DNA of 40,027 nt from the NCBI GenBank assembly GCA_030951025.1, contig JAUZQK010000143.1, positions 1-40,027 on the forward strand. Reading direction: 5' to 3'. The first letter of the stretch is position 1. Each line of letters opens with the position of its first letter. Positions 1 to 28,687 of this stretch are shown here, in pieces. The position numbers and the translations under genes are program-made. Below the pieces are notes generated by a model. It was not told the origin of the DNA and did no database searches. It saw only the letters and a program-made list of their open reading frames with translations. This DNA comes from Mariprofundus sp. (lineage in GTDB: Bacteria; Pseudomonadota; Zetaproteobacteria; Mariprofundales; Mariprofundaceae).

Positions 1-123
1 TGTTTCATACTGCACGGGTTCATTTTATCATGTTTCATGCTGCACGGGTTCATCTTGTGTTTCATACTGCACGGGTTCATTTTATCATGTTTCATCGCAC
101 ATGGATTGCATGGGTTCATATCA
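1..123 (-). repeat. 30-bp tandem repeat inside the NPC-repeat gene
   Basis: Plus-strand copies lie at 1-30, 31-57, 58-87 and a diverged copy at 88-123. Copies 1-30 and 58-87 are identical; 31-57 lacks one codon (3 bases). Each unit encodes ten residues (MNPCSMKHDK). Near identity at the DNA level suggests recent expansion by slippage or unequal recombination. Confidence 0.9.
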
Positions 124-203
124 TGGTGGCCTGCAAAAGCAGGTGCTGCAGATATGCCCATCGCAATAAACATTGCGAACAATAAGCTGGTCATTTGTTT
201 CAT
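1..203 (-). CDS. Secreted Cys/Met/His-rich repeat protein (NPC-repeat), 3' end outside window
   Basis: Partial gene with 67 residues visible. The start ATG at 203 follows a good ribosome site (GAGGAG) with about 8 bases spacing. Residues 1-24 form a signal peptide (MKQ, hydrophobic core, APAFA cleavage site). After this comes GHHD, then near-identical units of MNPCSMKHDK: one NPCNPCAMKHDK and at least three MNPCSMKH units. Every unit offers Cys, Met and His, all soft-metal ligands, so binding of a metal or metalloid in the periplasm is my inference; I know no assigned function. It lies 74 bases downstream of the ArsM-like gene on the same strand, so it is probably the third gene of that unit. 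The number of repeats cannot be told because the gene runs off the window. The open frame on the opposite strand at 37-237 is its shadow. Confidence 0.75.
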   Translation of the reverse strand, partial: MKQMTSLLFAMFIAMGISAAPAFAGHHDMNPCNPCAMKHDKMNPCSMKHKMNPCSMKHDKMNPCSMK

Positions 204-277
204 GGTTGATCTCCTCTTGTCCCTGATAGGGTTATAAGTGGATTAGGCGATATAACGAAACAATCCTTACAACTGCA

Positions 278-1126
278 TTAACAACAAGCTGAATCGGCAC
301 AGCAAGCGCCCGGCTTAACAGCCTCGATATAAGCCGACACCACATAGGCCTCCACTCCACTGCCCGGAGCCCAGTCACGAATAAAATCACGTGATGCATC
401 TTTGGGTACAATGCTAATCTGCTCAAAACCTGCGGCTTGCATCATCACCTCTAAATCATCAATCAATGATGCACCAGCCATGCAACCGGCATGCAGCATC
501 GGATCATTTTTCATCTCATCCGGCATCACAGCAGTTGCCACCACATCGGAAACAGCCAAGCGGCCACCCGGTTTGAGTGCCCGGAAAGCATCGGCAAATA
601 CCTGATCTTTAAATGGTGATAAATTGATCACACAATTGGAGATAATAATATCGGCAGTGTTATCAGCGACTGGCAAATGTTCGATTTCACCGAGCCTAAA
701 TTCCACCTGCGAAAAAGCCCCTTTTTCAGCATTTTTACGTGCTTTGGAAATCATCGCCGGAGTCATATCGATACCGATCACATGGCCGCCCTCACCCACT
801 TCACGAGCCGCCAGAAAAGCATCAAAACCGCCTCCACTGCCCAGATCAATCACCGTTTCACCCGCTTTTAGGCTGGCAATCGCACGCGGATTACCGCAAC
901 CCAAACCCATATCCGCACCGGCCGGAACATTGGCCAAATCATCTTCGGAATAACCCAAGCGGGTGGAGATCAAGGTATTGATCGCCGTATCATCAGAGAC
1001 GCCGCAACAACTGGCGACTTCACCACAGCAATCACCTGCATTGCTCGCTTCCGCCACTTCAGCATAGGATTCACGCACATGCTGGCGCAGTTGATCAGCA
1101 TTCAGACTCGAGTTATTTTCACTCAT
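278..1126 (-). CDS. arsM: Arsenite S-adenosylmethionine methyltransferase (ArsM-like)
   Basis: Of 282 residues. ArsM methylates trivalent arsenic using SAM in the cytoplasm. The Rossmann motif is DLGSGGGFD at 94-102, with the acidic strand end GID near 118-120. The family's substrate cysteines are all visible: GLGCGNP (Cys77), SNCVINLS (Cys165) and HAGCMAG (Cys215), with CC pairs upstream (Cys33-34 and Cys40-41). The C-terminus adds two further pairs, CCADSACC (275-282), a plausible metalloid-capturing tail. The start is supported by GGAG eight bases before ATG. It sits 80 bases downstream of the ArsS-like gene, as in arsenosugar gene pairs. The conserved cysteine set makes a generic methyltransferase unlikely. 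Substrate is inferred from family, not shown. Confidence 0.88.
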   Translation of the reverse strand: MSENNSSLNADQLRQHVRESYAEVAEASNAGDCCGEVASCCGVSDDTAINTLISTRLGYSEDDLANVPAGADMGLGCGNPRAIASLKAGETVIDLGSGGGFDAFLAAREVGEGGHVIGIDMTPAMISKARKNAEKGAFSQVEFRLGEIEHLPVADNTADIIISNCVINLSPFKDQVFADAFRALKPGGRLAVSDVVATAVMPDEMKNDPMLHAGCMAGASLIDDLEVMMQAAGFEQISIVPKDASRDFIRDWAPGSGVEAYVVSAYIEAVKPGACCADSACC

Positions 1127-1206: not shown

Positions 1207-2169
1207 TTAATCCAGCGCACCGCCACAGCTCGAACCCTGCCCTGCTGTACAGCCATAACAATGATCCATCACAATAATCGAACGTCCGCTAATATCCTGT
1301 TGCATCAAATCGCTCAGATGTGCTGCCTGTCCATGTTCTGCCTTGATCGGCAAATTCAGCATTTGATTAAAATCACAATCATACACATAACCCTGCCAAT
1401 CCACGCTGATCAAGCTATGACACATCACCCCGGCCAGATTATCTTCGCTATACACCTCTTTCAGCAGCTGCATATACGATGCAAATTTACCTTGTGAGAT
1501 TAATGTGCTGCCAAAGCGCTTGATCGGCATATTGGTGATCGTGAACAATTGATTGAAGGCAATGCCAAAACGCAGCTGCAATTCACGTTTATATGCAATC
1601 TCCAGTTCAGCTTGTGGTGGAGGCAGACTTGCGCCCTGCGGATTATAAACCAGCCTCAACATCAAATCCGAATCATCCATACCATAACCGAGCTTGTTCA
1701 AACGCTGCAAGGCATCAATACTACTGGAGAACACCCCTTTACCACGTTGGGCATCGACATTATCACTCAAATAACAGGGTAAGGAGGCCACCACTTCGAC
1801 CTTATGCAGAGCCAAAAACTCAGCCATATCTGCATAACCATCTTCTTCTAAAATCGTCAAATTGCAGCGATCAATAATGCGCACACCCAAGGCGCTGGCT
1901 TGCTCGACCAAGAACTTGAAATGTGGATTCATTTCCGGTGCCCCACCAGTCAAATCGAGTGTGCTAATCTGCTGTGCAGCCAGATACGCGAGAATCACAT
2001 CAATGGTGGCCCGATCCATAATCTCAGTACGACGCGGCCCTGCATCGACATGGCAATGCAAGCAGGTCTGGTTACATAAATAACCGAGATTCACCTGTAA
2101 TGTATTAATTTTTCCCCGGCTAAGCGCTGGGAAAGTAGTCATCTGCAATAATGGCAGTGTTGCATGCAT
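1207..2169 (-). CDS. arsS: Radical SAM protein, arsenosugar-biosynthesis ArsS family
   Basis: Of 320 residues. The radical SAM cluster motif is CNQTCLHC (Cys32, 36, 39), followed by HVDAGP and the strand LDLTGGAPE. The C-terminal domain ends CYGCTAGQGSSCGGALD, the Cys-rich tail typical of the ArsS (rSAM/DUF3641) family. Family knowledge: ArsS works with ArsM in making dimethylated arsenosugar, and some members carry selenocysteine. Here I see only cysteine codons and a normal TAA end. I chose the ATG at 2169 because AGGGG lies about eight bases upstream; an in-frame ATG 13 codons earlier (2208) has no such site. It is the first gene of the probable arsS-arsM-NPC unit. Confidence 0.87.
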   Translation of the reverse strand: MHATLPLLQMTTFPALSRGKINTLQVNLGYLCNQTCLHCHVDAGPRRTEIMDRATIDVILAYLAAQQISTLDLTGGAPEMNPHFKFLVEQASALGVRIIDRCNLTILEEDGYADMAEFLALHKVEVVASLPCYLSDNVDAQRGKGVFSSSIDALQRLNKLGYGMDDSDLMLRLVYNPQGASLPPPQAELEIAYKRELQLRFGIAFNQLFTITNMPIKRFGSTLISQGKFASYMQLLKEVYSEDNLAGVMCHSLISVDWQGYVYDCDFNQMLNLPIKAEHGQAAHLSDLMQQDISGRSIIVMDHCYGCTAGQGSSCGGALD

Positions 2170-2210
2170 CGGTTTACCCCTGTTTGTTTTAGGATGGTTC
2201 AGTCGCATCC

Positions 2211-2226
2211 GTAATGCTTACATTAC
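2211..2226. promoter_or_regulatory. Palindrome upstream of arsS, possible operator
   Basis: GTAATG-CTTA-CATTAC is a perfect 6-bp inverted repeat with a 4-bp spacer. It sits about 42 bases upstream of the arsS start, in the only sizeable gap before the ars unit. The position suits a repressor site, but no regulator gene such as arsR is in the window. Function is inference. Confidence 0.35.
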
Positions 2227-2277
2227 AGAGGTACTCACGATCATAGAGATCTACTCGACTAGCTGGCTATAAGCAGA

Positions 2278-28344: not shown

Positions 28345-28687
28345 ATGTAACAATCACAACAGTTACACGGAGTCGCTTAGCCCAAGCACTTGATCAATAT
28401 CCGCGAATTGCAAGACCAGACCCCGGCAACTTGGAAATGTATGATTGCAAGACCAGACCCCGACAACTCCAAGACCAGACCCCGACAACTCGGAAATGTA
28501 TGATTGCAAGACCAGACCCCGACAACTCAAGCCATCACACATATAAAATCACCCATGACTGTTGATCACGCTTGCAAGAGTTCGATGCTCCGAACTATGG
28601 ACATGACTATATGGTCATCGAGCAGACAACTTCTGGCAATATCATCATGATAGCATAGTCTGCTCTCAATCGACTCAGGAGACCTTG
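28345..28687. other. Gene-free stretch with a direct repeat array
   Basis: It holds the AAGACCAGACCCCG repeat array (28411-28530). The right part, 28560-28687, is an unremarkable leader for the next gene, with the ribosome site AGGAG at about 28677-28681. The plus-strand open frame at 28332-28565 is made largely of repeats and is not believed. Confidence 0.6.
28411..28530. repeat. Direct repeat array, 'CAAGACCAGACCCCGACAACTC'
   Basis: Four copies of a 22-bp core begin at 28411, 28448, 28470 and 28507. Copies 1 and 3 carry a 15-bp tail (GGAAATGTATGATTG), giving a 37-bp unit; copy 2 lacks the tail. Only copy 1 differs within the core (CCGGC and ACTTG). The 'AAGACC(A/T)GACCCC' phrase is reminiscent of ends found near REP-associated tyrosine transposases. 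No transposase is present here. It is not a CRISPR, since no variable spacers occur. Confidence 0.8.

Follow-up and report, generated by a model that had tools for sequence, protein, structure and literature searches.

What a small, presumably exported repeat protein rich in cysteine, methionine and histidine does directly behind a pair of arsenic genes is the question raised by the first 203 nt of the window, the whole 40,027-nt stretch of Mariprofundus DNA analysed here. The window is the entire contig C50 of a 163-contig, 2.2-Mb assembly (G000) that is ∼92% complete.

The repeat gene and its relatives

The minus-strand frame from position 203 to position 3 translates to MKQMTSLLFAMFIAMGISAAPAFAGHHDMNPCNPCAMKHDKMNPCSMKHKMNPCSMKHDKMNPCSMK and meets no stop codon up to the contig edge, which cuts the gene. 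Its 5′ part encodes a signal peptide (residues ∼1-25, predicted by eye) and four repeat units of the form MNPC(S/A)MKH. The preliminary description spoke of near-identical ten-residue units that each contain a single Cys, two Met residues and a single His. That content holds for every MNPCSMKH, but the length of ten residues is approximate, since the units are spaced by 30 or 27 nt and unit 1 is longer (NPCNPC). At the DNA level, the tandem array occupies positions 1-95 (minus strand; units of 27-30 nt encoding MNPCSMKH(D)K; TRF period 30, 3.3 copies, 82% matches). Searches of the contigs of the same genome found no continuation of the array, and the assembly probably broke at this edge because of the 27-30 nt units. 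Elsewhere in the window lies a near-perfect 59-nt tandem repeat (28411-28528; 2 copies, 96%).

The gene begins 74 nt 3′ of arsM, an arsenite methyltransferase gene at 278-1126 (minus strand; PRK11873, 351 bits against a cut-off of 263), which follows arsS, encoding an arsenosugar radical SAM protein, at 1207-2208 (minus strand; TIGR04167, 468 bits against a cut-off of 300). The true start of arsS is probably near 2169, as suggested by relatives that begin MHATLPLL. With arsM ending at 278, the repeat gene starting at 203 and all three genes on one strand, the reported placement directly downstream of an ArsS-ArsM pair is confirmed. A pentapeptide-repeat protein is encoded upstream of arsS at 2278-2880, with relatives beside arsS in several other genomes.

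Searches of the window protein against Pfam and NCBIfam returned sub-threshold matches only. Two candidate identities were rejected on their scores, prokaryotic metallothionein (PF02069, 11.4 bits against a cut-off of 33) and the CopI cuproprotein (NF047895, 15.6 bits against 200), and the truncated protein gave no match to PF10048 (DUF2282) at E values up to 1. Viral contigs held no relative of it; a plasmid search with a second repeat protein from the same genome returned 8 records, none covering 80% and all below 60% identity. In the open PubMed Central literature, which leaves subscription papers mostly outside, no paper on an NPC-type repeat was found by motif, judging by titles, and the single paper found on cysteine-rich repeats and cytochromes in Zetaproteobacteria is a review of quorum sensing; a passing mention in broader Zetaproteobacteria papers is possible; the same literature gave no paper joining arsenosugar genes with an ECF sigma factor, or arsM, arsS and radical SAM.

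Relatives are nonetheless numerous. Repeat genes are present in 43 of 74 family genomes (a weak match in G026, E=5e-4, is excluded) and absent from 31, among them the single-contig genomes G008 and G012. The named genomes contain 28 repeat loci, and the closest named relatives belong to Mariprofundus, Ghiorsea and other Zetaproteobacteria. The proteins fall into two types. Type A proteins are short, heme-less repeat proteins, and in type B the repeats are fused to a SoxA/TsdA-like monoheme cytochrome. The loci read comprise 53 repeat genes, 26 of type A and 27 of type B; these counts cover those loci alone and leave out further short repeat matches (e.g. G051:C45, G068:C189), and the A set is without the B fragments G019_5430 and G063_4944.

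The truncated window gene is likely of type A, that is, heme-less, judging by two kinds of evidence. Its head scores 70.7 bits against the A profile and 48.7 bits against the B profile, in a classifier with a leave-one-out accuracy of 44/52. Because three B proteins (G004, G017, G024) also score A-like by at least 16 bits, head similarity alone is no proof that the window gene is cytochrome-free. The assignment also draws on position: the repeat gene directly 3′ of arsM is of type A in 13 of the 13 genomes other than the window's own.

The frame is a real coding frame and not a nonsense one. Purifying selection is evident among the 26 A genes, where pN is below pS in 325/325 pairs (which are non-independent) and dN/dS, computed for the 29 pairs whose dS falls between 0.05 and 2, has a median of 0.147. 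The B heme domain gives similar values (pN<pS in 351/351 pairs; median dN/dS 0.136 over 21 unsaturated pairs). The soft-ligand character ascribed to the units is borne out by the residue frequencies of A, counted from its first NPC (C 0.137, M 0.150, H 0.082, K 0.161), which make the repeat part more than one third Cys, Met and His, and Lys-rich. Copy number, for which a recent change had been proposed, does vary, with 4-17 Cys among 25 complete A proteins. The Cys number is odd in 12 of these 25, so full Cys pairing is not the rule, and a disulfide-paired reading of A was rejected on this mixed parity. Two A proteins (G025, G063) carry a lipobox-like LAGC.

A search with the whole B profile at 1e-8 matched 73 of 398 genomes; 43 of these belong to the family, and many of the others match by the heme domain only. 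Outside the family, in other Pseudomonadota, the repeat is mostly NPCAAK (NPC itself being the search key), with Ala at position +2 (0.54), Lys kept at position +3 (0.64), and Met and His lost. A view of the repeats as pure Met/Cys/His metal sites therefore misses some members.

Genomic partners: the cytochromes and the arsenic genes

The second repeat gene of the window's own genome, on contig C128, is of type B: a signal peptide, NPCNPC(S/A)MKKHM repeats and a C-terminal monoheme domain that matches PF21342 (SoxA/TsdA) at 42.1 bits, above the gathering cut-off of 27. A c554-like cytochrome with five CXXCH motifs begins 96 nt 3′ of it. This arrangement is typical, as B is usually followed by a pentaheme cytochrome (MHC) gene: 17 of the loci read have the gene order A, B, MHC, and all 29 of the 29 MHC genes at these loci encode five CXXCH. 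An MHC homologue also lies 3′ of B in the outgroup genomes G094 and G078.

The heme domain lies 3′ of the repeats in 27 of the 53 repeat genes (identified in the own-genome B and aligned in 26). It aligns with SoxA (1h31, E=2.4e-8), including one Cys at the INYC position that is invariant in 26/26 aligned B proteins; in SoxA the corresponding Cys is a distal heme ligand. The own-genome B is not SoxA proper, missing the TIGR04484 equivalog cut-off (44.1 against 110 bits). AF2 modelled the heme domain only weakly (pLDDT 68.5), and the nine best Foldseek matches of the model are TsdA/SoxA, at a non-significant E of 0.7 or worse. Several variants were seen in passing. The B gene of G019 (L126, 5430-5798) looks broken, with fragmented frames and the heme part in pieces, through decay or assembly error. 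Relatives of the heme domain in G159 (L191) and G147 (L192) have CX4CH (CLSGGCH) in place of CXXCH and almost no repeats. DUF6969 (PF22308) genes stand beside outgroup repeat cytochromes at L199 and L201 (Pfam) and at L193 and L194 (by eye).

The tie to the arsenic genes that the preliminary description drew from the window holds in one respect. A repeat gene immediately follows arsM in 14 genomes, which represent five genera (G000, G001, G004, G006, G007, G009, G013, G019, G020, G022, G041, G047, G049 and G067; in G004 the adjacency was read from coordinates). In their distribution, the repeats track MHC, not arsM. Across the 74 family genomes, the counts of both, repeats only, other gene only and neither are 40/3/5/26 for MHC (p=7e-12), 33/10/19/12 for arsM (p=0.20, including two partial matches in G009 and G014) and 36/7/24/7 for arsS (p=0.56), p values that are comparative only because gene presence is correlated with phylogeny and many of the assemblies are incomplete. 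Restriction to the 36 better genomes gives 20/1/3/12 for MHC (p=4e-6) and 18/3/9/6 for arsM (p=0.12). The steadier partner of the family is the pentaheme cytochrome, not arsM.

The arsenic genes also occur alone, arsS being found in 116 of 398 genomes overall. G008, G012 and G015 have arsS-arsM without the cassette, beside an rsmB-like gene (named by eye) that elsewhere comes after it. AhpC/ResA-like thioredoxin-fold genes lie between arsS and arsM in G006, G007, G011, G033 and G049 (e.g. L132 6524-7192, L133 1100-1750).

A predicted ECF-type stress regulon

Upstream of the window gene lies a predicted ECF-type promoter motif, TGTAAGG-N15-CGCC (246-271, minus strand), whose GTAA starts 67 nt before the ATG. 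A second, TGTAATG-N15-CGAC (2202-2227, minus strand), precedes arsS. These are the only two TGTAAKR-N15-CG(A/C)C sites on either strand of the window. Two forms of the motif were scored, a strict one, TGTAA(G/T)(A/G)-N15-CGAC (TGTAAKR-N15-CGACY in genome scans), and a broad one, GTAA-NN-N15/16-CG(A/C/T)(A/C). The motif was derived post hoc from the A/B set, and the only genes that played no part in its discovery are arsS and the TVP38 and bufferin genes; the A gene of G017 has too short an upstream region and was left out of the score.

The strict motif precedes 19/27 A rows, 16/27 B rows and 14/20 arsS, compared with 0/22 arsM and 0/29 MHC. The 35 matches in 54 repeat-gene regions stand against a shuffle mean of 0.06 and a maximum of 1, and 29 of the 35 lie 65-90 nt before the start. 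Among 283 non-repeat, non-MHC regions, 19 carry it: 14 before arsS, 2 before TVP38/oxidoreductase genes and 3 inside the sigma ORF before the anti-sigma gene. The broad motif precedes all 25 of 25 A genes (25/27 rows, both misses being B fragments), 20/27 B and 20/20 arsS, giving 65 of 74 A, B and arsS upstream regions against a mononucleotide-shuffle mean of 2.6 and maximum of 6. Six of the seven motif-less B genes overlap an A gene or start within ∼15 nt of one, so that they would be driven by the A promoter; the remaining one is in G023. Since A has its own motif and arsS the same one, the link between A and arsS-arsM appears to lie in shared regulation and not in read-through alone. Plain operon cargo of arsM is an insufficient description of a gene that has its own motif and no co-occurrence with arsM. 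A scan for sigma-70 promoters and terminators gave nothing above shuffles.

A finer resemblance concerns A. The neisserial sigma-E consensus, as given in an excerpt of PMC2893595, is GTMAGBWTT and CGTCTAAH with a spacer of 12-13. The window A site, GTAAGGATT-N12-CGCCTAAT, agrees with 16 of the 17 positions of this consensus. It is the only site scoring at least 15 in the 40-kb window on both strands at spacer 12-13; in ten shuffled windows, taken together, there were three such sites. The best score near arsS is 14, with a spacer of 16 and in another register, so the finer match holds for A and not for arsS.

In 12 chosen genomes the strict form has 50 sites, against 21 for a backward control pattern. 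Eleven of these fall within the sigma gene and were set aside as non-promoters. That leaves 39, of which 24 precede arsS (11), A (2), B (6) or operons with TVP38 (5), and a further 3 precede a PBP/PstS-like gene, msrA (G003:C4, L270, 1938-3059; the site is 49 nt before msrA, which msrB follows) and, as a single site in G001, a receiver-domain gene. Among the remaining 12, L262, L269 and L271 are intragenic and L264 is 35 nt before an ORF. The window's own genome has four strict sites, before arsS, B, a VTT (TVP38)/pyridine nucleotide-disulfide oxidoreductase operon and the PBP/PstS-like gene; arsS, A, B and TVP38 operons recur behind strict sites in the 11 other chosen genomes. The TVP38/oxidoreductase operons with a site are those of G000:C154 (L260, Pfam-checked) and, by eye, G001:C3 (L267), G013:C28 (L263), G020:C9 (L261) and G030:C5 (L272), and DUF547 joins the operon in G013 (Pfam-checked) and G020 (by eye). 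The PBP/PstS-like gene (G000:C45, L268, 1954-2011) starts 57 nt behind its site and is followed by transport-like genes, which may reflect a phosphate/arsenate link or chance.

A related ECF sigma factor is present in 19 of 20 genomes examined. The window's own genome is among them, with one sigma of this kind (C32) beside a zf-HC2 anti-sigma gene. Related sigma/anti-sigma pairs adjoin the cassette in G024, G047 and G053. We infer that a sigma factor of the C32 type reads the motif.

The bufferin operons served as an independent test, since a metal-stress class of motif predicts its presence there. MNIO (PF05114) occurs in 7 of 74 family genomes and in 3 of the 43 that bear repeats; in G000, whose assembly is ∼92% complete, it has 0 matches. 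Five of the seven MNIO loci have a DUF2282-type gene (G003, G007, G021, G022, G045), Pfam-checked in G007, G022 and G045 at 67-72 bits, and the ORF lists of the G046 and G065 loci contain none (the G065 gene is partial). Four of the five operons, all except that of G003, have GTAAG-N-CGAC 72-75 nt upstream of the start. The A and B motifs share this geometry, and the window A site, at 67 nt, matches in sequence. The presence of the motif before bufferin operons makes general soft-metal/thiol envelope stress the more likely inducing signal, as opposed to arsenic alone.

Outside the family, the broad motif appears in 5 of 16 rows, which are 5 of the 11 rows with repeats (shuffle mean 0.6 of 16; several starts are uncertain), and an outgroup scan with narrower spacing found it in 3 of 18 rows, of which two belong to the family. 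Both repeat genes of outgroup G368 carry GTAACC-N16-CGAA exactly. According to an excerpt of PMC3511200, the Caulobacter sigma-F regulon, which responds to Cr and Cd, has the motif GTAACC-N16-CGAA and includes DUF2282, DUF692, DUF2063 and DoxX genes.

Candidate functions and comparison with known systems

On balance, we lean towards the reading that A is a soft-metal/thiol buffer of the periplasm that works without MNIO and has in B a sibling wired to a cytochrome, both belonging to an ECF envelope metal-stress regulon that includes arsenic methylation. Metal or thiol stress would free the ECF sigma factor, and promoters of one type, if the motif works as such, would switch on arsS-arsM, A and B-MHC. 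The A protein, probably disordered and presumably exported, would fill the periplasm with Cys/Met/His/Lys-rich chains and act as a sponge for soft metal or metalloid ions that arrive there. B could hold ions or thiols beside its heme and exchange electrons with its MHC partner, in whichever direction, so that oxidised thiols are re-reduced or the redox state of an ion is altered. In the cytoplasm, ArsS and ArsM would methylate and further process arsenic, and the oxidoreductase may also handle what enters the cell. Several points count against this reading: a general metal buffer needs no cytochrome, periplasmic thiols may be oxidised, Met and His are lost outside the family, most genes there have no motif, and neither does the bufferin operon of G003. 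More tentatively, and with some doubt, the NPC-repeat proteins could represent a second class of periplasmic metal buffer under ECF control, one that has no maturase and whose B-MHC arm, wired through a heme-thiolate and a pentaheme, would be redox-active and process captured metal(loid)s or thiols electronically, with arsenosugar-type methylation in the same regulon.

Four other explanations were weighed against the buffer. The system might be specific to arsenic, with A and B binding As(III) or the methylated trivalent arsenicals made by ArsM and ArsS and B-MHC oxidising them. The conserved place of A behind arsM in the 14 genomes and the broad motif at every arsS agree with this, as do a B-like gene, the CX4CH variant without repeats, adjoining arsS in outgroup G147 and arsenosugar glycosyltransferases (TIGR04282/TIGR04283) near the repeats in G382. 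However, the repeats occur with arsM and arsS no more than by chance, ten repeat-bearing genomes have no strong arsM match (some are incomplete) and the motif is shared with four of five bufferin operons, which makes an arsenic-specific role unlikely. It is less likely again that the Met/Cys repeats are a sacrificial antioxidant that scavenges periplasmic oxidants or metal-driven radicals and is recycled by Msr and cytochromes. This would fit the five relatives in which a thioredoxin-fold gene separates arsS from arsM, the motif site before msrA-msrB in G003 (export by eye) and the control of msrAB by meningococcal sigma-E (PMC2893595). Yet the msrAB site is found in one genome only, Met is lost outside the family, and the Lys/His enrichment and the motif common to arsS and the bufferins point to metals.

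SoxAX loads SoxY, and by analogy the SoxA/TsdA-like heme might conjugate thiosulfate or sulfane sulfur to the repeat Cys, which would act as carriers. The alignment with 1h31, its invariant Cys and the PF21342 match speak for such sulfur chemistry, as does the presence of NPC, albeit the search key, where Met and His are lost. SoxB, however, has no match at E 1e-20 in any of the 74 family genomes, which disfavours a Sox system as such, and the SoxA equivalog cut-off is missed by the own-genome B; moreover, the free A is heme-less and a promoter in common with arsS-arsM and bufferins would be unexpected. We rate sulfur chemistry as improbable, slightly more so than the antioxidant role. A part in the Fe(II)-oxidation electron chain is the least credible: the hosts are members of an iron-oxidising group and the cassette has two cytochromes, but the repeats are absent from the 31 family genomes, including the single-contig G008 and G012, and the motif is of the stress type.

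If the buffer reading is right, an unannotated repeat family of iron-oxidising bacteria acquires a testable function, and one predicted stress regulon joins arsenic methylation, metal buffering and cytochromes. It suggests that periplasmic metal buffering can proceed without the bufferin maturase, and, with a low-complexity Cys/Met/Lys repeat joined to a SoxA-like heme, such a metal buffer might be redox-wired.

Known systems resemble the NPC-repeat proteins in part. Like the prokaryotic metallothioneins (PF02069), the window protein is Cys-rich, but it is exported (by eye) and has another Cys spacing. SilE/PcoE-type proteins are Met/His-rich, disordered periplasmic binders and share the low complexity, the periplasmic location and the Met/His content; the NPC-repeat proteins differ in one Cys per unit, the NPC core, the ECF-type motif and the cytochrome-fused sibling. 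The B heme domain has PF21342, CXXCH and the invariant Cys at the INYC position in common with SoxA/TsdA, whereas B has a single heme with repeats in front, stays below the SoxA cut-off and has no SoxB in the family.

Bufferins are metal buffers, DUF2282 peptides encoded with MNIO/DUF692, DUF2063 and DoxX, and full operons of this kind occur in sister genomes of the window's host. A was rejected as a bufferin itself, having no DUF2282 and no MNIO in its own genome. Both are small, exported proteins that contain Cys, and their genes are preceded by the same kind of ECF-type motif at a similar distance; what sets the NPC-repeat proteins apart is the NPC(S/A)MK repeats, the missing DUF2282 and the cytochrome-fused form. 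By this analogy, the NPC-repeat proteins may work like bufferins.
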